64,000 nt of DNA. Source: Nitrosomonas sp. Nm33. GTDB taxonomy: Bacteria; Pseudomonadota; Gammaproteobacteria; Burkholderiales; Nitrosomonadaceae. The notes beneath the pieces were generated by a model, which did not search any database, had not been told where the DNA came from, and saw only the letters and a program-made list of their open reading frames with translations. Positions 716 through 64,000 of the stretch are shown here, piece by piece. The position numbers and the translations under genes are program-made. Each line of letters starts with the position of its first letter. Position 1 is the first letter of the stretch. The stretch lies in contig NZ_FNPJ01000004.1 in NCBI RefSeq assembly GCF_900107265.1, positions 1 to 64,000 on the forward strand. Reading direction: 5' to 3'.

Positions 716-829
716 GCTTGGCGGTGACCTACTTTCACATGTGATAACACACTATCATCGGCGCAACTTCGTTTCACGGTTCTGTTCGGAATGGGAAGAG
801 GTGGTTCCAAAGCGCTATTGCCGCCAAGC
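716..829 (-). rRNA. rrf: 5S ribosomal RNA
   Basis: Minus strand reads TGCTTGGCGGC at the 5' end, with the conserved CCCATTCCGAACAG core in the middle and a 3' end complementary to the 5' end (GCCAAGC). Length about 114 nt is normal. It is the last gene of the 16S-Ile-Ala-23S-5S operon. The ends are estimated from the terminal helix. Confidence 0.95.
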
Positions 830-932
830 ATAACCTTTTATGTTTTAAAGTAGATTAAAACAAATAAACTTTTAATTAAATTTTTCTATCAAGAAATAAC
901 AATAAGAAACAATAACTTATTCTCAAAATTAT

Positions 933-3821
<2,889 letters not shown>

Positions 3822-4012
3822 CTATAATTTTGAGAACTTCTTTTTCTTGATACACAACTCCAGAATTTCAAGTATTATCCAATTCTTCCGATAATATCTT
3901 ATGCTTAAACAAATATTAATTTTATTAACCTAATTAATATTTAGATTTCAGCTTTTCTTAGTTCTGAATCTGTTTGATATACAATCTACTTTTAATCTAC
4001 TTCTTCTATTTT

Positions 4013-4022
4013 TTAAAGAGCA
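4013..4022 (-). promoter_or_regulatory. Spacer boxA antitermination signal
   Basis: Minus strand reads TGCTCTTTAA, the boxA consensus bound by NusB/S10, in the spacer between tRNA-Ala and 23S. A second boxA-like site lies in the leader before 16S. The pair fits the usual rRNA antitermination layout. Confidence 0.75.
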
Positions 4023-4111
4023 TAGTCAAAATAAACAATCAGATACGATACGAGCTTACCTCTAATGATTTTACGAGATTTCTCTCTTTTCATTAAAATT
4101 AAAACATAGTA

Positions 4112-4187
4112 TGGTGGAGGTGAACGGGATCGAACCGATGACCCCCTGCTTGCAAAGCAGGTGCTCTCCCAGCTGAGCTACACCCCC
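4112..4187 (-). tRNA. tRNA-Ala (TGC)
   Basis: 76-nt cloverleaf on the minus strand beginning GGGGGTGTAGCTCAGCTGGG and ending in an encoded CCA. The anticodon TGC sits in the loop CTTTGCAAG. It has D-loop AGCTCAG and T-arm GGTTCGATCCC. It sits in the 16S-23S spacer next to tRNA-Ile, the common proteobacterial arrangement. Confidence 0.97.
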
Positions 4188-4191
4188 TATT

Positions 4192-4268
<77 letters not shown>

Positions 4269-4368
4269 ATAAAGGATCCTATATTAGCACAACCTTTCGC
4301 ATCGTATCTTATTTGTTTTTTTAACTTTTTAAACAACCAATAAATTGTAGGCGCTTAGCAATATTTCA

Positions 4369-5908
<1,540 letters not shown>

Positions 5909-6046
5909 TAAATTTAATTCTATTTGCTCAGCTTTTAGTATATATTTAGCATTAACATACTAATCACCTTGTATACTCTTAGTTATTAATTTGTTAACCA
6001 AATCAATAATATTTACTAAGCGCCTACATTTATTGGCTGTTTATTT

Positions 6047-6404: not shown

Positions 6405-8414
6405 CTATTCCCCCTTAACTTCCAGAGTAATAATTAATTCTCGCTCAGTAACTGGCCAGATCAACTTTAATTTGACTGCCTGCATGATCTTTTCATAGCC
6501 TCCTTCCGATTGAGATACGGAAAAGTGAGGCTGCGCATATAATCTGATTGGAACAGACGTACTAATCAACAATGCACCTTGTAGAACAACATCTTCCATT
6601 GCAATGTTAGTTACATCAGCTAAATCCAGAACTCGTCCAAAACCGCCCAACACCGTCGATTCATCTTTAACATAACATCCACCTGAGCCATCGCAACTGG
6701 GCATAGCTAAATTGATCTCGGTTTCCATATGACCCGCCAAATTCCCAGACAAGTCATATGAAACTAAAATACGGTTGCCAGAAAGCTCTAATTCCTTAAC
6801 TACTTGACATTGATCAGTTTTGGACACGAAACGGATACGACACTCATCATGTGATTCGAGCTGATAAATCAGCGATACCCTGTTTAGGCTGTCATAAAAT
6901 AAGTTTTGCGCATGGATGTCAATCTCTAAGTCAGAAAGGGTAATTTGATCCTTGAAATTGATCCGATCATGCGCAGACACAATTCCTGCACTGTTATGTT
7001 TTGGTATTTCATGCGCATCTGGTTGTATTTTGCAGTAGTAATGCTCTATTTGGCGACGCAGCGTGTCACCAAAATTATGCTTAAGCAGATAGGCATCAAA
7101 TTCACATATGCTCGCACTTCCATCGAGTTTAGCTACAACCTGGAGCATTCCATTATGCAAATAAGCCTCTTCCACACCGTCCAGATCAGTGTCTTCGATA
7201 AAAAAAGCAGGGCGTGGCGCACAGGCATCCAGCAAAGCTTCCAATTCGACAATATTATTGTATATAGCTCGTCGTAGGTGAGGGAGATACAGACCACCAA
7301 ATAAGCCATGCCAATAAGCATCATTGGCCTGTGCTGCATACAGTTTTTGTCGCATCGCATTAGTAGACTGTGTTACTGGCAGCGCAGCAAAACGGGCAGA
7401 AAGGGATAGCATACGCTTGTGCATCCAGTTCGATTCGGGATAGCGAGTAAAAAAGTTTTTCCAGATACCCCCTCGTAGAAACGATTTATTATGTTCATAC
7501 CAGCCAGCTGCTTTTGCCTGGGATACCAGATCAGTATAAGCATTAGCTGGCCCAGCAGGGAGCGTCCACTCATTCATCTCAATGTAGGAGGTAGTCGGCA
7601 GATAAATTATTCCATGAGATTTTTCTAAAGCATGATAATCATGATAATGCCGAGGAAAAATTTTGGGAGAAGCAAGTACGCCCTGAATAAATTGCTCAAG
7701 CCAGCCATTCTCATATACCCACTGATAGGTCTCAGGCCAGATGCCAAATTTCTCGATGTCGTCAAAATAAACAGCGGCAATACCTTTGTTTGTCGTTGAG
7801 TTTTCAACCAGGGACTCGATATACGCCACCGCTTCATGCACTGGAGAAAAAGGTAGCTTATAGCGAAGTGTTTCAGAAATAGGAAAAAGATCCAGCACGC
7901 GACCGTCTTCTTCAGTGGTAAAAAAACCACTGAGCTCCGCTTTGGTTTTACCTGCGCAAATAAAATGATAATCATCTACGATTGCATAGCGAATACCACA
8001 GTCTACCAGCGCGGGCACTACTGTTGATTCCCATACTCGCTCGGTCAGCCAAGCACCCTGAGGACGCTGCCCGAATCTGTTCTCTAACTTCCTGGAAAAA
8101 GTCTCGATTTGCCCGATACGATCCCGATTGGGAATAACTGCTAATATTGGTTCAGTTTCTCCCGCACCGAAAAGCTCCACTTGTCCCCGCATGACCATAT
8201 CACGTAACAAAGCCATATCAGCGGGGTAATGCTCAAACAGGAAATCAAGTAACCATCCTGAAAAATGGAGAGCAAACTTAAAATCTGGATAGCGATACAA
8301 AACCTGTAAAAAAGGCCTATAGCAACGCACATGTGCATCGACCAAAACTTCAGAAAAATTACCAACCGGCTGATGCGCATGAACACCAAATAGTAAAGAT
8401 ATAGACTGAGACAT
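6405..8414 (-). CDS. GH57 alpha-amylase / 4-alpha-glucanotransferase
   Basis: About 669 residues, the size of the two-domain GH57 4-alpha-glucanotransferases (catalytic barrel plus C-terminal beta-sandwich domains). The GH57 regions are visible: HQP at about 14-16, GQVELFG near 78-84, WLTERVWE with the presumed nucleophile Glu near 125, and FDDIEKFG with the presumed acid Asp near 219. These positions agree closely with the Thermococcus enzyme. It probably rearranges or hydrolyses alpha-1,4-glucan in the cytoplasm, since no signal peptide is seen. The start is the ATG at 8414; an in-frame GTG precedes it directly and no strong ribosome-binding site separates them. It is part of a minus-strand glycogen cluster with the next GH57 gene and glgC. 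Exact reaction (amylase or transferase) is not decided by sequence. Confidence 0.85.
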   Translation of the reverse strand: MSQSISLLFGVHAHQPVGNFSEVLVDAHVRCYRPFLQVLYRYPDFKFALHFSGWLLDFLFEHYPADMALLRDMVMRGQVELFGAGETEPILAVIPNRDRIGQIETFSRKLENRFGQRPQGAWLTERVWESTVVPALVDCGIRYAIVDDYHFICAGKTKAELSGFFTTEEDGRVLDLFPISETLRYKLPFSPVHEAVAYIESLVENSTTNKGIAAVYFDDIEKFGIWPETYQWVYENGWLEQFIQGVLASPKIFPRHYHDYHALEKSHGIIYLPTTSYIEMNEWTLPAGPANAYTDLVSQAKAAGWYEHNKSFLRGGIWKNFFTRYPESNWMHKRMLSLSARFAALPVTQSTNAMRQKLYAAQANDAYWHGLFGGLYLPHLRRAIYNNIVELEALLDACAPRPAFFIEDTDLDGVEEAYLHNGMLQVVAKLDGSASICEFDAYLLKHNFGDTLRRQIEHYYCKIQPDAHEIPKHNSAGIVSAHDRINFKDQITLSDLEIDIHAQNLFYDSLNRVSLIYQLESHDECRIRFVSKTDQCQVVKELELSGNRILVSYDLSGNLAGHMETEINLAMPSCDGSGGCYVKDESTVLGGFGRVLDLADVTNIAMEDVVLQGALLISTSVPIRLYAQPHFSVSQSEGGYEKIMQAVKLKLIWPVTERELIITLEVKGE

Positions 8415-8531
8415 CACTAAATTTCACTCATTCTGTGCTAGGGATAATTTGAAGCTCCTAAACTATATATTTCTTATTTTTATTAAAATAATTTATATAT
8501 TTGGAGCCCATTCTTTTCAACTTAACTAGAC

Positions 8532-10238
8532 TTACGATGAACGCCGCATCGTTTCAATCACTCCAGTATATCGTCCACCACGGCTGATAGGCTCAAGCAC
8601 GATTGCGGGCACAGGCAGTTTCAGCAAACGATAGAGGTTGGCAAGATTTTTGCGAAACAGTTGATCAAAGCTAGCAACTGTCTGTGGAGAGTTATAATCA
8701 CCAAACCACCAGAACCAGTCCGAACTCTCACATGATGCAAGCTGTTGTTCTGCCAATAATTTCTCTTCATCCGTCAGACGCCCGCTCTTCATTACAAGAT
8801 CATAACTCTGTTTAGCCGCACACAATAGATCCCAGGCTAAATTTTTATCATGATCACCTATCCAAGTTGAAAAAGTGCCGTAAACCCAGCTTCCTGCTGC
8901 TAGCGCAGGTAAAATTTTGGTTTCAGCCTGCGTATAAGTTAAATTCACAATATAGTCACGATAAGTCGTTGTTTGAATGAACGAGTGATTTTCAAGTAAA
9001 TCGTAAAGATCAGTAAGAAAATAGTAACCATTATAAGGATAAGATTCCCAAGCATTTTCACCATCGAGAATGACACTTACAATTGGATACGTAACCGCTT
9101 GCACCTCCTGATGAATTTTTTCAAGCGTATGAACAAAATTCTCTGCTGCATCGCGTCCAAACCATTTTGAGTATTCGAATCCGATCATATCGGATAATTT
9201 GTCATCACGAAAAAAACAAAATATCCCTTTTTTTTCATCCGATACCCGGTAGGGACGGTAAAGATAGTTACCCCGATCTGGTAAAGATTGATCCGGATAC
9301 GATTTATGCAAGCTGTTAACCAATACACCCTCACCACTGGCGCTCCACTGGCAGTCCAATTCCATGAAGATATCCAGCAGAGCTTTTGACATGGCCCCCT
9401 CAGCAGGCCAGATACCCGCAGGCTGCATATGGAAGCGCCGCTTGTGACTATTGATGGCTGTTTTTACATGAAACGTAACGCGTTCACGCCCCCCTGGATA
9501 GATTGCATTCGAAGGTAAAGTAGCATCAGGAAGACTATCACGAGCTGACGAGAAATCAATCAGTAAGGGGGCCAGCGGATGAAAATGAGGCGTAGTTGAT
9601 AATTCGATTTGACCCTTGGCAGCAAGTTCACGGTAACGTGGAATCAATTCCTGGATAAGTTTTCCAATAAGATTGAATAATTGCAATCTATCTGCATAGC
9701 TGAAATTTTTACCTTGCGTCATGAGCTTTACCACGATCTCATGACTTCGCCGCACACTTTCCCCCATCCATGCAAGGTGGTACCACGTTAACAAATCAGC
9801 CAGGTACTGACCGGAAACATAGATTAAATCCTTATCCCCGTGCCCTTTCAACATATCGTACAAATCACGCAAATGTTGATAGGGTGGGTAAGGTTTCAAC
9901 ATGGTGGCATGATTGCTCTGAAAGCAGCTATTCAATATAGCCAAGCGTTCATTTACCGTGATCCTATTCAGATCAGGAATAGCAAGTAAGCGCAATAATG
10001 GATCCCGTATTTTTTTCTGTGTAAACTGCTGAGCATAATCTTCAATTTGATCCAGCAATATTGGCACAAAATTGACGATCGCTTTGACACGAGGATGTTG
10101 TTCGAGATGATGCGCCATGTCAGTGTAATCTTTGATTGCATGCAGATATACCCACGGCAGCACAAATTCACCTGTTTCATGGTCCCGATAATCGGGTTGG
10201 TGCATGTGCCATAGTAAAACGAGATTCAGTGGTTTCAT
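8532..10238 (-). CDS. GH57 family glycoside hydrolase, glycogen-associated
   Basis: 568-residue protein of a GH57 branch commonly found beside glycogen genes. It starts with LLWHMHQPDYRD (HQP motif at 13-15). It has IWPAEGAMS with the likely nucleophile Glu280, and LDGENAWESY with the likely acid Asp392 and Glu394. It has no signal peptide, so it should act on intracellular alpha-glucan. It lies between the other GH57 gene and glgC, all on the minus strand, with gaps of 117 and 160 bp. It is clearly not a duplicate of the first GH57: length, N-terminus and catalytic motifs differ. The precise activity (debranching, branching or amylase) is open. Confidence 0.85.
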   Translation of the reverse strand: MKPLNLVLLWHMHQPDYRDHETGEFVLPWVYLHAIKDYTDMAHHLEQHPRVKAIVNFVPILLDQIEDYAQQFTQKKIRDPLLRLLAIPDLNRITVNERLAILNSCFQSNHATMLKPYPPYQHLRDLYDMLKGHGDKDLIYVSGQYLADLLTWYHLAWMGESVRRSHEIVVKLMTQGKNFSYADRLQLFNLIGKLIQELIPRYRELAAKGQIELSTTPHFHPLAPLLIDFSSARDSLPDATLPSNAIYPGGRERVTFHVKTAINSHKRRFHMQPAGIWPAEGAMSKALLDIFMELDCQWSASGEGVLVNSLHKSYPDQSLPDRGNYLYRPYRVSDEKKGIFCFFRDDKLSDMIGFEYSKWFGRDAAENFVHTLEKIHQEVQAVTYPIVSVILDGENAWESYPYNGYYFLTDLYDLLENHSFIQTTTYRDYIVNLTYTQAETKILPALAAGSWVYGTFSTWIGDHDKNLAWDLLCAAKQSYDLVMKSGRLTDEEKLLAEQQLASCESSDWFWWFGDYNSPQTVASFDQLFRKNLANLYRLLKLPVPAIVLEPISRGGRYTGVIETMRRSS

Positions 10239-58857: not shown

Positions 58858-59880
58858 CTACTTTTCTGAAGCAGAGGTTTCAGCTTCCGAGAAAATGCTC
58901 ACCCGCGCAACGCCATCGTTACCGATGACACCGCGGTACATTCCTGTGGTATTGAAGCACATGGCATAATTGCCTTTTCCATCCAACACAATCAAACCAC
59001 CATCACCACCAATGGCGGCAATTTCCGCTAGAACATTATTGGCCGCTTCGGCAATCGGTTTGTGCTGTAATCGCACCTGTGCCGCCGTGTTAAATGCGGC
59101 TGCAGCACGGATGAACATTTCTCCGGTACCGGTTGCAGATACCGCAACCGAGTGATTGTCCGCATAGGTACCAGCGCCAATGATCGACGAATCCCCCACG
59201 CGCCCGAAGCGCTTGTTCGTGAGTCCGCCAGTTGATGTGCCAGCAGCGAGATTGCCATAACAATCCAGCGCCACAGCACCAACCGTGCCGCGCTTTTCAT
59301 TCTCGCCTGGCAATGGTGTAACCGGAGCAGCGTCATGATCGCGCAGCACGCGTTCCTTGGCAATCGCTTTTTGTAACTGATCCCAGCGGTATTGCGTATA
59401 AAAATAAGATGGATCCACGATCTCAAGACCCTGTTCGGCAGCGAAAGTTTCAGCACCCTCGCCCATCAGCATCACATGCGTGCTTTTTGTCATTACAGCG
59501 TGAGCGGCACGGATCGGATTGCGAATCGTTGTGACCGCAGCAACAGCACCAGCCATGAGTGTGGAACCATCCATAATCGATGCCTCCAGTTCATTATGGC
59601 CAGCATGGCTGAACACCGAGCCCTTGCCAGCATTAAACAAGGGTGAATCTTCCATTACCACGATTGCTGCAATCACAGCATCAATGCTGCTGCCGCCAGC
59701 TGCAAGTATCGCATAACCAGCGATCAGAGATTGAGCAAGTGCCTCTGTATAAGCCTGCTTACGTTCCGTTGTCAGCTTACTGCGAATGATAGTACCGGCG
59801 CCACCGTGGATCACCAGCCGAATCGGTGAAGCATCTGCCATTAGTAAGCTGGTCACCATTTCTTCCAAGGACAAGAGCAC
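58858..59880 (-). CDS. Isoaspartyl peptidase / L-asparaginase (Ntn-hydrolase)
   Basis: 340 residues. It is an autoprocessed N-terminal-nucleophile hydrolase removing beta-aspartyl dipeptides. HGGAGTI (25-31) and the processing site KRGTVGAVALD with Thr199 as the expected nucleophile are present, then TSTGGLTNKRFGRVGDSSIIGAGTYAD. About 12-15 extra N-terminal residues precede the usual start, so MADASP (in-frame ATG near 59838) is a possible alternative. It faces the small membrane protein tail to tail. Confidence 0.9.
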   Translation of the reverse strand: MLLSLEEMVTSLLMADASPIRLVIHGGAGTIIRSKLTTERKQAYTEALAQSLIAGYAILAAGGSSIDAVIAAIVVMEDSPLFNAGKGSVFSHAGHNELEASIMDGSTLMAGAVAAVTTIRNPIRAAHAVMTKSTHVMLMGEGAETFAAEQGLEIVDPSYFYTQYRWDQLQKAIAKERVLRDHDAAPVTPLPGENEKRGTVGAVALDCYGNLAAGTSTGGLTNKRFGRVGDSSIIGAGTYADNHSVAVSATGTGEMFIRAAAAFNTAAQVRLQHKPIAEAANNVLAEIAAIGGDGGLIVLDGKGNYAMCFNTTGMYRGVIGNDGVARVSIFSEAETSASEK

Positions 59881-60021: not shown

Positions 60022-60561
60022 TCATGCTTCTGCAAACTCACCAAGAATTTGCTCGTATAGCTGTCGATCAGTATCGTTAAACAAAACAAAGCGAATATGT
60101 TTAACAGTCAAAAGTCTGGGAAGCATATCGAAAATTGTCTGGAAAGCGATCCTTGTAGCCGATTCTAATGGGTAGCCAAAAAAGCCCGTTGAGATTGCCG
60201 GAAAAGCAATGGAACTGATGCTATTATCCTCAGCCAGTTGCAGCGCATTACGATAACAACAGGATAACAGTTGATCAGAAGGCTCTTCTTTGCCGTAGAC
60301 CGGCCCAAGACAATGAATAACATAGCGGTTTGGCAGATTATATGCTCTGGTTATGACCGCCTGGCCAGGCTGAATAGGCGCAAGCTTGCGGCATTCCTCT
60401 TCGAGGTCAGGGCCCGCCCCCCGATGGATCGCGCCCGCCACACCTCCTCCCATCCGCAACATGGCGTTAGCCGCGTTAACAATGGCATCCATATCAGATT
60501 GAACCGCAATGTTTCCCTGAACACACTCAATGGTTACGCCGAAGAATTCACGCTTAGTCAT
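60022..60561 (-). CDS. Macrodomain ADP-ribose/O-acetyl-ADP-ribose hydrolase-like protein
   Basis: 179 residues. The macrodomain motifs are NAANAMLRMGGGVAGAIHRGAG (about 29-50) and AFPAISTGFFGYPLE with VLFND near the end, as in YmdB/MacroD proteins that deacetylate O-acetyl-ADP-ribose or remove ADP-ribose from proteins. It is a single gene, divergent from nothing close. Confidence 0.92.
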   Translation of the reverse strand: MTKREFFGVTIECVQGNIAVQSDMDAIVNAANAMLRMGGGVAGAIHRGAGPDLEEECRKLAPIQPGQAVITRAYNLPNRYVIHCLGPVYGKEEPSDQLLSCCYRNALQLAEDNSISSIAFPAISTGFFGYPLESATRIAFQTIFDMLPRLLTVKHIRFVLFNDTDRQLYEQILGEFAEA

Positions 60562-60930
60562 AAATTACATCTCCCATTATTGTATTAGAGTAAATTTATA
60601 TCCCTTAACCGCTTTACTCTTTTACCACCTCAATGGCCTAGCTGCTGCAGCTTGCTCTTTGTCGACCTACCGTGACTGCGACCAACCGCTGGGCAAAGGC
60701 CAGGACTGAGATCTTTGATAGCACATAACCACTCACTCAGCAGATTGGGCAATATTACTCATGATGCTACGCATCATCAACCTTGAAGCTATACAAATCT
60801 ACTTTTAACAAAACCTAGTTTAGCTTTTTCATCTTTGAAAATGATTGGAAACTACTTCGGTTAAAAAACTTTTGTGATCAAAATAAGATCAAAAATTATC
60901 AAGCTTTTTGCACGTAAGGAATAAGAATGC
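60562..60930. other. Intergenic region before the kinase/tRNase Z fusion
   Basis: 369 bp, AT-rich near the downstream start. I see no coding region. TGTGATCAAAATAAGATCAAAAATTATC contains two GATCAAAA words near 60875-60890. Confidence 0.4.
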
Positions 60931-62928
60931 ATGTATAGCGATATTAGACACAACTTGCCTGTTTTAGCTTATCGTGCGGCTGATATCGCCACCATTGTGT
61001 TAATGCACAATCGGCGAATATTGTTGTATGGTCCACCTGGAGTCGGCAAATCGACCTTGGCAGCACAATTGGCGCATGAACTCAACAAGGCTGGTCGAAG
61101 CTGTTACTGTATCTGTGCCGATCCCGGTTCGCCCGCCTTTGGTTTTCCAGGTGCTGTTTCTCTCGCTAGATGGCAATCGGATGACTGGCAGATTCGCAGT
61201 TATGAAGCTATCTGCAGTCTCAATGCAGGCCGTTTCCGCCTGCCGCTGGTTTTAGCGATACGACACCTCGTCCAATCCCTTGCCCAATCGCTTGATTACG
61301 ACGTATTGTTAATTGATGCCCCTGGCGTAGTCCGTGGCGTTGCCGGCAGTGAATTGTTACAGGGTTTGTTCGAGGTGGTAGCTGCCGATGCTGTGCTCGC
61401 GCTTACTGCGGCTGATGGCCATCCAGCGCTGCTGGATGAATTGCGTAACTTGACAGACCAGCTCTTCGTGGTCCAAGCCAGCGTGGAGGCCAAGCGACCA
61501 GGGAAACGCAGTCGCGCTCGCCAGCGGACAATGCTGTGGAATAACTACCTTAAGCACGGTATTGAACACACAGTCGATCTTGCGCAAGTAAATATTATCG
61601 GCACACCGCCCCCCTTAGGCGAAGCCAGTGCCTGGCCAGGAAGACAGATCGCACTATTGAATCGCAATCAGACCCAGGTCATGGCCGAAGTGAAGCACTT
61701 GCACGGAAAGCAATTAACTGTCAGATTGCCATACTTACCGCACGCTTTCGATAGTTTATTGATCCGGGATGCGCAGCGCTCACTCAACGGTCTGGTAGAA
61801 ACGGCTATACCGTTTGCGGCAGAGCCGCTCGAATACCTGCCGCCATCTACTGTGAATCGCCCACCCCAGCAAAATGGAGGAATGCGGATCATAGGTCGAG
61901 TCGGCCAAATCGATTTCTGCCTGGTTAATGGTATTTTTGGCGATCCGCTATTGCACGTGCGCTTGCGGCAGCAAAGGCGAAGCCTGCTGTTCGATTTGGG
62001 AGAGGGTGTGCGTCTGCCCGCACGCATTGCTCATCAGGTAACGGATGTTTTTATCAGTCACGCCCATATCGACCATATTGGTGGCTTCATGATGTTATTG
62101 CGGTCACGCATTGGTAAATTTCCACCATGCCGCCTGTATGGACCGCCAGGATTGGCTCAACACATTAAAGGATTCCTGCAAGGTATATTATGGGATCGGA
62201 TCGGTGAGCACGCGCCCTGCTTTGAGGTAACGGAAATGCATACAGACCGATTGCTACGTTTTCGACTGCAGGCAGGCCAGGAAGCATGTGTGCAGCTCGA
62301 CGAGGTCAAGTTGGAAGCAGGGGTTATCCTGCAAGATACGGGTTTCCGTATTCGAGCACAAATGCTGGATCACCATACGCCGGTGCTGGCCTACGCCTTC
62401 GAGCCGACAAAGGAGATCAATATCCGCAAAGATTACTTGCAAGCACATAACCTGAAGCCAGGACCTTGGTTGGCTCAGTTGAAAAAACACCTGTTGGCCG
62501 AAAATGACAGAGCAATAATTACTCTGCCTGATGGAATGGTGACTAATGTGGCTGCTATCGCAACTGATCTGACTCTGATCAAGCCAGGCAAGAAATTAGT
62601 TTATGCAACCGATCTTGCTGATACCGTGGATAATCGCAAGCGTCTCCAGGCTTTAGCCCGATACGCCCATACCTTTTTCTGCGAAGCTTGCTTTATGGAA
62701 AGGGATGTCAGCCAAGCTGCGCAGACTGGTCATTTAACCACACGCGCTTGCGGCGAAATTGCGACGGCTGCTGAAGTTGCCAGACTGGTACCCTTCCACT
62801 TTTCCCAGCGCTATGCTGACAAGCCACAGCAGGTTTATGATGAGATACATGCCGTCTGCTCACGTGTTGTCATGCCACCTCCCTTGCAGCCCATTGGGAT
62901 TACCAACGAACAGGATGAACTAACCTAG
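60931..62928 (+). CDS. Fusion: Clp1-like P-loop polynucleotide kinase-type domain plus tRNase Z-type nuclease
   Basis: 665 residues. N-terminal domain (1-about 300): Walker A YGPPGVGKST (33-42), ADPGSPAFGFPGAV and DAPGVVRGVAGSELL, the layout of Clp1/Grc3 RNA 5'-kinases. C-terminal domain (about 310-650): metallo-beta-lactamase of tRNase Z type with ISHAHIDHIGG (HAHIDH at 377-382), YATDLADT (metal Asp near 560) and the tRNase Z signature HFSQRY at 623-628. Such a protein could join 5' phosphorylation and 3' trimming of RNA, but this is inferred from the domains. The start has TAAGGA. No other RNA gene sits next to it. Confidence 0.82.
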   Translation: MYSDIRHNLPVLAYRAADIATIVLMHNRRILLYGPPGVGKSTLAAQLAHELNKAGRSCYCICADPGSPAFGFPGAVSLARWQSDDWQIRSYEAICSLNAGRFRLPLVLAIRHLVQSLAQSLDYDVLLIDAPGVVRGVAGSELLQGLFEVVAADAVLALTAADGHPALLDELRNLTDQLFVVQASVEAKRPGKRSRARQRTMLWNNYLKHGIEHTVDLAQVNIIGTPPPLGEASAWPGRQIALLNRNQTQVMAEVKHLHGKQLTVRLPYLPHAFDSLLIRDAQRSLNGLVETAIPFAAEPLEYLPPSTVNRPPQQNGGMRIIGRVGQIDFCLVNGIFGDPLLHVRLRQQRRSLLFDLGEGVRLPARIAHQVTDVFISHAHIDHIGGFMMLLRSRIGKFPPCRLYGPPGLAQHIKGFLQGILWDRIGEHAPCFEVTEMHTDRLLRFRLQAGQEACVQLDEVKLEAGVILQDTGFRIRAQMLDHHTPVLAYAFEPTKEINIRKDYLQAHNLKPGPWLAQLKKHLLAENDRAIITLPDGMVTNVAAIATDLTLIKPGKKLVYATDLADTVDNRKRLQALARYAHTFFCEACFMERDVSQAAQTGHLTTRACGEIATAAEVARLVPFHFSQRYADKPQQVYDEIHAVCSRVVMPPPLQPIGITNEQDELT

Positions 62929-63184: not shown

Positions 63185-64000
63185 TTAGCTATGGGATCGT
63201 ACCACCAGGCATTCTATTCCCTGCCGGGCCAGACTCTGGCAGGCGGTGTGCGCTTCGTTTTTCTGCAAACCCACCAATTGGGCTCGATAGAACTTACGAT
63301 TGCTAATCTCAATCTCGGTTACCACTATTTCACCTGGTACCCAGCGGGTGGCAGCTTGCGCCTGGGCCTGGGCTCGATCGTACGCCTGATAGGAACCTAT
63401 TTGAATTCCCCAGCTGTTGCTATCCACCACCGCAACCCTCTGGAGCGCAACATTGACCTCTGACGAAGTAGGCCGTTTCATCATGGCCAGTTCGGGAGTC
63501 TTTGGTTGCAAGGGAACCGGTTTAGAGACAGGAGCAGACATACTAGCCTTCATAGCTACGGCTGGCGCCGCATCGATATTGCTGACATTACGGGCTGACT
63601 TGGTTGCCAGTTCGGGGGTCTTTGGCTGCAAGGGAGCCAGTTTAGAGACAGGAGCAGACGTACTAGCCTTCATAGCTACGGCTGGTGCCGCATCGATATT
63701 GCTGACATTACGGGCCGACTTGGTCGCGACTGATTGCGTAAAGCTGCGATCCAGCAGCTGGGCCATTTGCCGATCGCGCGAGGCGGCGCTTTGTCCACCC
63801 ATCACCACCGCAACTATCCGTCGATTACCCCGCTTGGCGGAAGTGGCCACATTGAACCCTGAGGCCCGGATAAAACCGGTTTTCAGGCCGTCAACACCCG
63901 GCGTGTTTCGTACCATGCGGTTGTGACTGTTATAGGTGATACCTTTGTAACGAAACGACTGGGTCGAAAAATAATGGTAGTACTGAGAAAAATCCTTCAT
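63185..64000 (-). CDS. D-alanyl-D-alanine carboxypeptidase (PBP5-like), C-terminal part with SPOR domain
   Basis: 271 visible residues; the gene continues beyond the window, so the SxxK and SxN motifs are not seen. The KTG box is VDGLKTGFI (about 35-43), followed by NVATSAKRGNRRIVAVVMGG. A linker with two copies of a 40-residue unit (TKSARNVSNIDAAPAV...) leads to a C-terminal SPOR domain (about 195-268, GIQIGSYQAYDRAQAQA). SPOR binds denuded glycan at the division septum, so the enzyme probably trims peptidoglycan there. Confidence 0.88.
   Translation of the reverse strand: MKDFSQYYHYFSTQSFRYKGITYNSHNRMVRNTPGVDGLKTGFIRASGFNVATSAKRGNRRIVAVVMGGQSAASRDRQMAQLLDRSFTQSVATKSARNVSNIDAAPAVAMKASTSAPVSKLAPLQPKTPELATKSARNVSNIDAAPAVAMKASMSAPVSKPVPLQPKTPELAMMKRPTSSEVNVALQRVAVVDSNSWGIQIGSYQAYDRAQAQAQAATRWVPGEIVVTEIEISNRKFYRAQLVGLQKNEAHTACQSLARQGIECLVVRSHS
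63486..63725 (-). repeat. Two 120-bp tandem repeats in the carboxypeptidase linker
   Basis: Units 63486-63605 and 63606-63725 differ at few positions and encode 40 residues each (TKSARNVSNIDAAPAVAMKA...PKTPELA). The duplication lengthens the linker between the enzyme and the SPOR domain. Confidence 0.85.

Follow-up and report, generated by a model that had tools for sequence, protein, structure and literature searches.

A conserved bacterial fusion of a Clp1-like P-loop domain with an RNase-Z-like nuclease in Nitrosomonas, with a possible role in RNA end processing

The first 64,000 nucleotides of contig NZ_FNPJ01000004.1 of Nitrosomonas sp. Nm33 (RefSeq assembly GCF_900107265.1, a genome of 3.23 Mb), referred to here as the window, carry at 60931-62928 on the plus strand a gene in which an N-terminal Clp1-like P-loop domain is followed by an RNase-Z-like metallo-beta-lactamase in one chain. 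In the open reading frame listing of the window this gene is a single intact frame of 665 codons that starts with ATG and gives a product of 665 residues. The initial annotation, made from the sequence alone, had described one 665-residue chain joining a P-loop with the motifs HAHIDH and HFSQRY, and this is what is found, with GPPGVGKST at residues 34-42, HAHIDH at 377-382 and HFSQRY at 623-628. The fusion is real and not an accident of assembly because six further Nitrosomonas genomes and 15 less closely related genomes carry it too. It is a new and conserved union of two known folds in which the kinase has diverged. As to what it does, the reading we prefer, and on which we are evenly divided, is that it would be a two-headed RNA end-processing enzyme in which a Clp1-type kinase and an RNase-Z-type nuclease act beside RtcB.

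The best family for the N-terminal domain is Pfam CLP1_P, which matches residues 34-208 with 53.6 bits (E 3e-14) and passes the curated cut-off of 26.6. It was also the only family that matched all 12 fused N-terminal domains examined (E 0.001), MeaB being second with 10 of the 12. When a profile of the fused N-terminal domains was compared by hhalign with a profile of unfused bacterial Clp1 the E-value was 5e-17 (98.8%, 196 columns), and against other proteins it was 7e-14 for a single unfused Clp1, 2e-6 for FtsH and 0.04 for a ParA/MinD-like protein. The alignment of fused with unfused Clp1 stops near residue 222; that residues 225-320 resemble the C-terminal part of unfused Clp1 is an impression by eye and is not claimed. 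In the five unfused bacterial Clp1 proteins from our survey CLP1_P was found in every one and NOL9_C in one, and all nine of their sequence matches in the PDB were Clp1, NOL9, GRC3 or CLP1_P-domain chains. PDB sequence searches with the whole fusion protein and with the profile of the fused N-terminal domains gave short P-loop matches of other ATPases for the N-terminal half, and no Clp1 was among the best 60 of 95 matches in the former or the best 60 of 267 in the latter; the link of the fused N-terminal half to the solved Clp1, NOL9 and GRC3 chains goes by way of the unfused bacterial Clp1.

A model of residues 1-305, made with six close relatives, is weak (mean predicted local distance difference test score, pLDDT, 51.9; predicted template-modelling score 0.43) and is taken as one line of evidence among several. 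With it, all 19 Foldseek matches at an E-value of 0.001 or below came from Clp1 or Grc3-complex entries. In VIA such entries filled the first 15 rows with Z of 15.0 to 11.8, followed by signal recognition particle GTPases with Z of at most 10.3, and the top match (Z 15.0, root-mean-square deviation 3.3, 166 aligned) covers residues 6-190 only. Judged from profiles and model together, the N-terminal half is best placed with the Clp1/Grc3-type P-loop proteins, and this assignment stands. The initial annotation had proposed the same and had named a fold nearer to another P-loop family, for example MinD, as what would speak against it; the comparison favours Clp1. A structure prediction of the whole chain had a mean pLDDT of 38.5 and was useless, and no statement made here rests on it.

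On the C-terminal half the tRNase Z-type nuclease that had been recognised from its motifs is borne out by the family models. The NCBIfam model NF002558, named ribonuclease Z, scores 276.7 bits on residues 330-648 (E 2e-82), which is below its curated cut-off of 315, and TIGR02651 RNase_Z scores 117.7 bits (E 5e-34) with a cut-off of 293. Pfam Lactamase_B_2 passes its cut-off of 27 with 50.6 bits, but the RNase Z models match far more strongly, and the best PDB sequence match of the fusion protein is RNase Z 1y44 (E 1e-12). By these profile matches the nuclease half is related to RNase Z yet lies outside the curated families TIGR02651 and NF002558 as drawn. Residue conservation was counted over the 22 fusions known, including that of G820 in which a contig end cuts the frame after about residue 636, and HxHxDH and the distal His, Asp, His and His are kept in all 22. 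By family analogy we take His481 and His623 to be metal ligands, Asp561 to be the bridging metal ligand and His601 to be the phosphate-binding His, and we read residues 488-521 as the flexible-arm region of RNase Z.

Both domains were found in one frame in 22 genomes, seven of them Nitrosomonas, and together these genomes span at least two classes of bacteria. The genome of the window probably belongs to the N. communis lineage, as the closest named copies are those of N. communis Nm44, Nitrosomonas sp. Nm34, Nm132 and Nm166 and one metagenome-assembled genome of N. communis; the six other Nitrosomonas copies (these five public genomes, L002-L006, and G010) are 78-86% identical to the copy in the window. 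In the survey of the family the fusion was present in 7 of 125 genomes, all of the genus of the window. The 15 further genomes (G518, G546, G555, G562, G571, G577, G693, G705, G808, G820, G844, G867, G920, G1006 and G1211) came from a sample of the class searched with CLP1_P (369 genomes), a sample of the class searched with NF002558 (350 genomes) and a sample of the phylum (398 genomes). The class survey by CLP1_P scored eight candidates per genome, and G546, G555, G571, G577 and G844 surfaced only with NF002558. In the 350-genome sample 12 genomes, including that of the window, have the fused frame and in two more a contig end truncates a nuclease of the fusion type; G821 (L172) and G798 (L179), whose nuclease frames end at contig ends before the kinase, stand outside the count of 22, and G531 and G647 are partial matches. 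A survey of the order (399 genomes, N-terminal domain profile) returned only the genome of the window, which is a weak absence given the threshold of E 1e-8 and the five candidates scored per genome. In one quick FastTree tree for each half the fused copies are separate from their unfused relatives, a grouping that would fit a single ancient fusion event after which the two halves descended together and were lost in places, or else transfer at a later time. The ratio of nonsynonymous to synonymous substitution rates (dN/dS) over the 21 pairs of the seven Nitrosomonas copies was 0.13-0.31 for the kinase and 0.11-0.32 for the nuclease half, dN being somewhat higher in the kinase half, and both halves are under purifying selection in Nitrosomonas. 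As a side observation, a fusion-less Nitrosomonas has at L049 (G018:C94:9458-9601) an 81-residue frame that is 47-50% identical to about residues 603-659 of the fusion and is perhaps a remnant.

As to what the two domains do together, the gene context hints at RNA repair. In G555 an rtcA gene (L199 5671-6819) ends 34 bases before the fusion frame (6854-8872) on the same strand, and its product is 56% identical to a G562 protein that is called RNA 3'-terminal phosphate cyclase by both Pfam and NCBIfam. G562 carries a THUMP-rtcA-archease-rtcB cluster on the contig of its fusion, 8-12 kb away from it. In G693 a homologue of the THUMP protein is encoded one gene from the fusion, and in G097 another adjoins the unfused clp1 (30-47% identity, no Pfam family reached by either). 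The two functions also occur side by side as separate genes: G681 has an unfused NF002558-subfamily rnz about 130 bases downstream of an unfused canonical clp1 and on the same strand. Unfused rnz was present in three of the four genomes with unfused clp1 (hypergeometric p 0.0003), a figure on which we do not lean since two of these genomes are of one genus and the samples differ (369 and 350 genomes).

In the genome of the window an archease gene adjoins that of a 475-residue RtcB, on a contig other than that of the fusion. Long-type RtcB (E <1e-160) is present in 19 of the 21 fusion genomes tested and in all four tested genomes with unfused clp1 as against 6 of 20 Nitrosomonas genomes without clp1 (Fisher p 2e-5), a comparison that leaves out G840 and G844, ignores descent and whose background is Nitrosomonas only and says nothing on other Gammaproteobacteria. 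Within Nitrosomonas it is present in 7 of 7 genomes with the fusion versus 6 of 20 without (p 0.002). In all 11 loci that were read, seven from fusion genomes and two from fusion-less Nitrosomonas, archease lies beside long-type RtcB.

A probable course of events under the reading we prefer is that the N-terminal half, as a divergent Clp1-type kinase dependent on nucleoside triphosphate, would phosphorylate 5'-OH ends of RNA and that the C-terminal half, as an RNase-Z-type zinc nuclease, would cut back 3' ends and leave a 3'-OH. Broken RNA, most likely tRNA, with 5'-OH and 2',3'-cyclic-phosphate ends would thereby come to have 5'-phosphate and 3'-OH ends. In cells that have RtcB and archease such ends would leave the direct ligation route of RtcB and may go to turnover, to re-maturation or to another joining route. 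We favour this because of the identity of the two domains, the residues conserved in all 22 fusions, the purifying selection, the rtcA and clp1-rnz neighbourhoods and the co-occurrence with RtcB. In animals, according to a review (PMC13247085), phosphorylation of the 5'-OH by CLP1 removes the substrate of RTCB, and silencing of CLP1 raised ligation in insect cells. The bacterial fusion would unite such a kinase with a nuclease of the ELAC1 kind, within cells that also have RtcB and archease. A bolder form of the reading, which we hold only tentatively, is that the fusion may be a second and independent system of two-ended RNA healing, in which a Clp1-type kinase resets 5'-OH to 5'-phosphate while an ELAC-type nuclease removes the 3' nucleotide that bears the 2',3'-cyclic phosphate; it would be a counter-branch to RtcB-archease-RtcA in Gammaproteobacteria and relatives, and the altered Walker B and the RFRL segment would reflect a new substrate preference.

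The points that weigh against two-ended processing come from the gene context and from the active site of the kinase. As for context, to the limits of the RtcB comparison just given it has to be added that adjacency to rtcA is seen at only one of the 22 fusion loci and was noticed after the fact, and that most fusion loci, including that of the window, have no repair gene in the flanks examined, which range from about 0.5 to 12 kb. Pairs of archease and RtcB are also found in the fusion-less Nitrosomonas genomes G022 and G034, and G097 has clp1 while an RNase Z match is absent, so one function can occur without the other. As for the active site, the motif definitions used were those in the main text of Saito et al. 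(2019, PMC6777427), namely Walker A GxxxxGK[S/T], Walker B [D/E]hhQ, clasp [T/S/L]xGW and lid RxxxxR. Walker A is kept in all 22 fusions. The position of the Walker-B Gln is S, T or N in all 22 fusions. At the clasp the sequence here is DAPGV; T/S/L is gone in 17 of 22 fusions and Trp is present in none, and in the unfused bacterial Clp1 the Thr is present in 5/5 and the Trp absent in 5/5. In stacked alignments Arg195 takes the place of the second lid Arg and Arg199 that of another Arg four residues further, each in 22/22. The first lid Arg is not in register: Pro190 stands in its place here, and 21 of the 22 have an Arg or Lys at 188 or 189. In place of the [SDN]PxxHxLP of unfused Clp1 the fusions have a strict [CS][ST]L[DN][AG][GAS]RFRL segment. 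Going by these alignments, the kinase half is one that has diverged from unfused Clp1. The earlier implication of an RNA kinase holds as to the Clp1 family, and activity on 5'-OH RNA is less certain than the motifs had suggested, because the Walker-B Gln is gone in 22/22 and the T/S/L of the clasp in 17/22. Moreover, the main text of the same paper reports yeast Clp1 to be without kinase activity, so a Clp1 can lack it.

These changes at the active site, together with the report on yeast Clp1, the RFRL segment specific to the fusions and the somewhat higher dN in the kinase half, are what the chief rival explanation draws on, according to which the N-terminal half binds ATP without phosphorylating RNA and instead recognises or positions the RNA or switches the nuclease, so that the RNase-Z-like half does the chemistry. 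We consider this rather unlikely, as the Walker A Lys, the Walker-B Asp and the two lid arginines are kept in all 22 fusions across at least two classes.

Another question is whether the nuclease half simply serves ordinary tRNA maturation. The initial annotation had advised a check for a normal rnz in the genome; no ordinary rnz was found there, and nothing but the fusion gave a full-length RNase-Z-like match. When the fusion genomes were searched with TIGR02651 (E <=1e-9), in 17 of 17 the other matches stopped by about position 162 of the 302 of the model and only the fusion ran further, which is what would be expected of a housekeeping tRNase Z that matures tRNA 3' ends with the kinase as an accessory. 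The same search, which was positive in 13 of 14 control genomes, found a full-length RNase Z in none of 26 fusion-less Nitrosomonas genomes, 10 of which had no match and 16 a partial one ending at position 149. In the genome of the window CCA is encoded in all 42 tRNA matches. Because all 26 fusion-less genomes are without full-length RNase Z and CCA is encoded in 42/42, tRNA maturation in the Nitrosomonas tested seems to do without RNase Z, and the fusion probably has a task beyond such housekeeping. Both results make the housekeeping explanation improbable; membership of the RNase Z family, from which processing of pre-tRNA 3' ends had been proposed, stands, and pre-tRNA 3' cleavage is unlikely to be the main job of the protein because CCA is already encoded.

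Just as improbable in our view is a couple of the Las1-Grc3 kind, in which the nuclease would cut a precursor RNA and the kinase would phosphorylate the new 5'-OH so that 5'-phosphate-dependent nucleases degrade it. Chains of the Las1-Grc3 complex rank near the top in the fold search with the kinase half, and nuclease and kinase are indeed in one chain, but RNase-Z-type cleavage yields 3'-OH and 5'-phosphate, a product that needs no kinase. Finally, a phage-defence or counter-defence factor for RNA damage during infection, which the patchy spread (7/125 genomes of the family and 12/350 of the class with the fused frame) might suggest, is very improbable, as the fusion gave no match in phage records or in viral contigs (searched with the fused kinase and with unfused Clp1), none of 26 plasmid records with a match was covered over 80% and the plasmids gave no fusion, and its chromosomal neighbours are partly conserved in Nitrosomonas.

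Table 1. Features of the fusion gene and its divergent neighbour in the window; counts refer to fusions unless stated otherwise.
Feature	Position	Strand	Basis or conservation
Macro-domain protein gene, divergent neighbour of the fusion	60022..60561	-	found next to the fusion or close to it in L002, L005, L006 as well
AAGGAA, like a ribosome-binding site, nine bases before the ATG of the fusion	60916..60921	+	sequence
Whole fusion gene, Clp1-like P-loop and RNase-Z-like metallo-beta-lactamase, 665 residues	60931..62928	+	frame, profile matches, relatives
Clp1-like P-loop domain, residues 34-208	61030..61554	+	Pfam CLP1_P, hhalign, fold search
Walker A GPPGVGKST, residues 34-42	61030..61056	+	GxxGxGK[ST] in 22/22
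Asp64, counterpart to the Walker-B Asp in Clp1 (ADPGSP versus DADIGQ)	61120..61122	+	D in 22/22
Fusion-specific CSLNAGRFRL, residues 95-104	61213..61242	+	unfused Clp1 has [SDN]PxxHxLP there
DAPG, residues 129-132, corresponding to the clasp segment	61315..61326	+	Gly in 22/22; T/S/L before Gly in 5/22
Lid-like RPGKRSRARQR, residues 189-199	61495..61527	+	Arg195 and Arg199 line up with two arginines shared by 5/5 unfused Clp1
RNase-Z-like metallo-beta-lactamase domain, residues 330-648	61918..62874	+	NF002558, TIGR02651; PDB RNase Z 1y44, 2cbn
HAHIDH metal-binding motif, residues 377-382	62059..62076	+	HxHxDH in 22/22
His481	62371..62373	+	kept in 22/22
Segment with Gly-Pro motif, residues 488-521	62392..62493	+	[PA]G[PA]WL in 21/21 (G844 not included)
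Asp561	62611..62613	+	kept in 22/22
His601 in GHLTT	62731..62733	+	His in 22/22
HFSQRY, residues 623-628	62797..62814	+	HFSxR[YH] in 22/22

A scan for promoters and terminators gave nothing above chance. Among the neighbours of the fusion gene (Table 1) the macro-domain gene was not found at the fusion loci of L003 and L004. The unfused clp1 of G097, a genome of the same family and a different genus, comes after a macro-domain gene and an asparaginase-like gene (L069 2472-5932), and the fusion in the window has counterparts of both in its flank; the asparaginase-like gene, named by eye, is 77% identical to the window gene at 58858-59880. A gene for a CheR-like methyltransferase (L072 6780-7634, with Pfam CheR assigned for the L072 protein, and L198 4347-5162) adjoins the fusion in L003, L004 and the distant G693 and lies a few kb off in L002, L006 and the genome of the window. 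A gene for a DUF6763 protein (L071 5739-6047, from which the Pfam assignment was made, L201 2193-2486, L160 813-1109 and L161 2888-3187) immediately precedes the fusion in G562 and G546, and in G645 and G819 such a gene lies close to unfused rnz. Elsewhere in the window, a complete rRNA operon with tRNA Ile and tRNA Ala between 16S and 23S occupies 716-5910 on the minus strand. At 63486-63724 a 120-base unit is present in two tandem copies with 94% matches, a 40-residue in-frame duplication in a minus-strand gene that by eye is D-alanyl-D-alanine-carboxypeptidase-like and has one copy of the unit, again by eye, in L002 and L005.

To our knowledge the role of Clp1 in bacteria is open, and the conserved fusion, the unfused clp1-rnz pair and the rtcA-fusion pair tie bacterial Clp1 to RNA end processing in a single testable protein. 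In the way it would work the fusion resembles T4 Pnkp and Trl1/Rlg1, which unite in one chain a kinase for 5'-OH ends with a head that processes 3' ends, although the fusion has no ligase domain and the folds of those proteins differ from its own. According to the main text of Saito et al. (PMC6777427) the Trl1 kinase has no significant similarity to Clp1. The Las1-Grc3 complex, whose Grc3 entries are top fold matches of the N-terminal half of the fusion, is likewise a nuclease that works with a Clp1-family kinase. There the two are separate subunits, and the nuclease is of a family other than that of the fusion. Human ELAC1, a short RNase Z, is of the same family as the nuclease half; it is said, in a title of Yip et al., to repair cleaved tRNAs, and unlike the fusion it presumably has no kinase. 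The unfused RNase Z subfamily PRK02126 (NF002558; for example in G681, G119, G122, G630 and G744) has the same best model and 32-39% identity to the nuclease half, but its members, found in 15 of the 350 class genomes, are above the NF002558 cut-off whereas the fused nucleases are below it (276.7 versus 315) and stand apart in the single FastTree tree.

The bacterial Clp1 described in the main text of PMC6777427, Ts-Clp1 of Thermus scotoductus, likewise has a Clp1-type P-loop near its N-terminus. According to that text Clp1 occurs in 0.9% of complete bacterial genomes and bacterial Clp1 averages 333 +/- 74 residues, as against the 665 residues of the fusion with its nuclease, replaced Walker-B Gln and altered clasp. 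The terms lactamase, RNase Z and Nitrosomonas do not occur in that main text, supplements excluded, and a literature search over titles and the openings of abstracts found no description of a Clp1-like/RNase-Z-like fusion. The archease-RtcB operon (PMC3973293) has its counterpart in the archease beside RtcB in the genome of the window and in 10 other genomes; unlike that operon, the fusion is a separate locus, and the only repair gene directly adjoining it is rtcA, in 1 of 22. If the kinase is active, the fusion would be a simple bacterial counterpart to the competition between CLP1 and RTCB that is discussed for animal tRNA splicing (PMC13247085).

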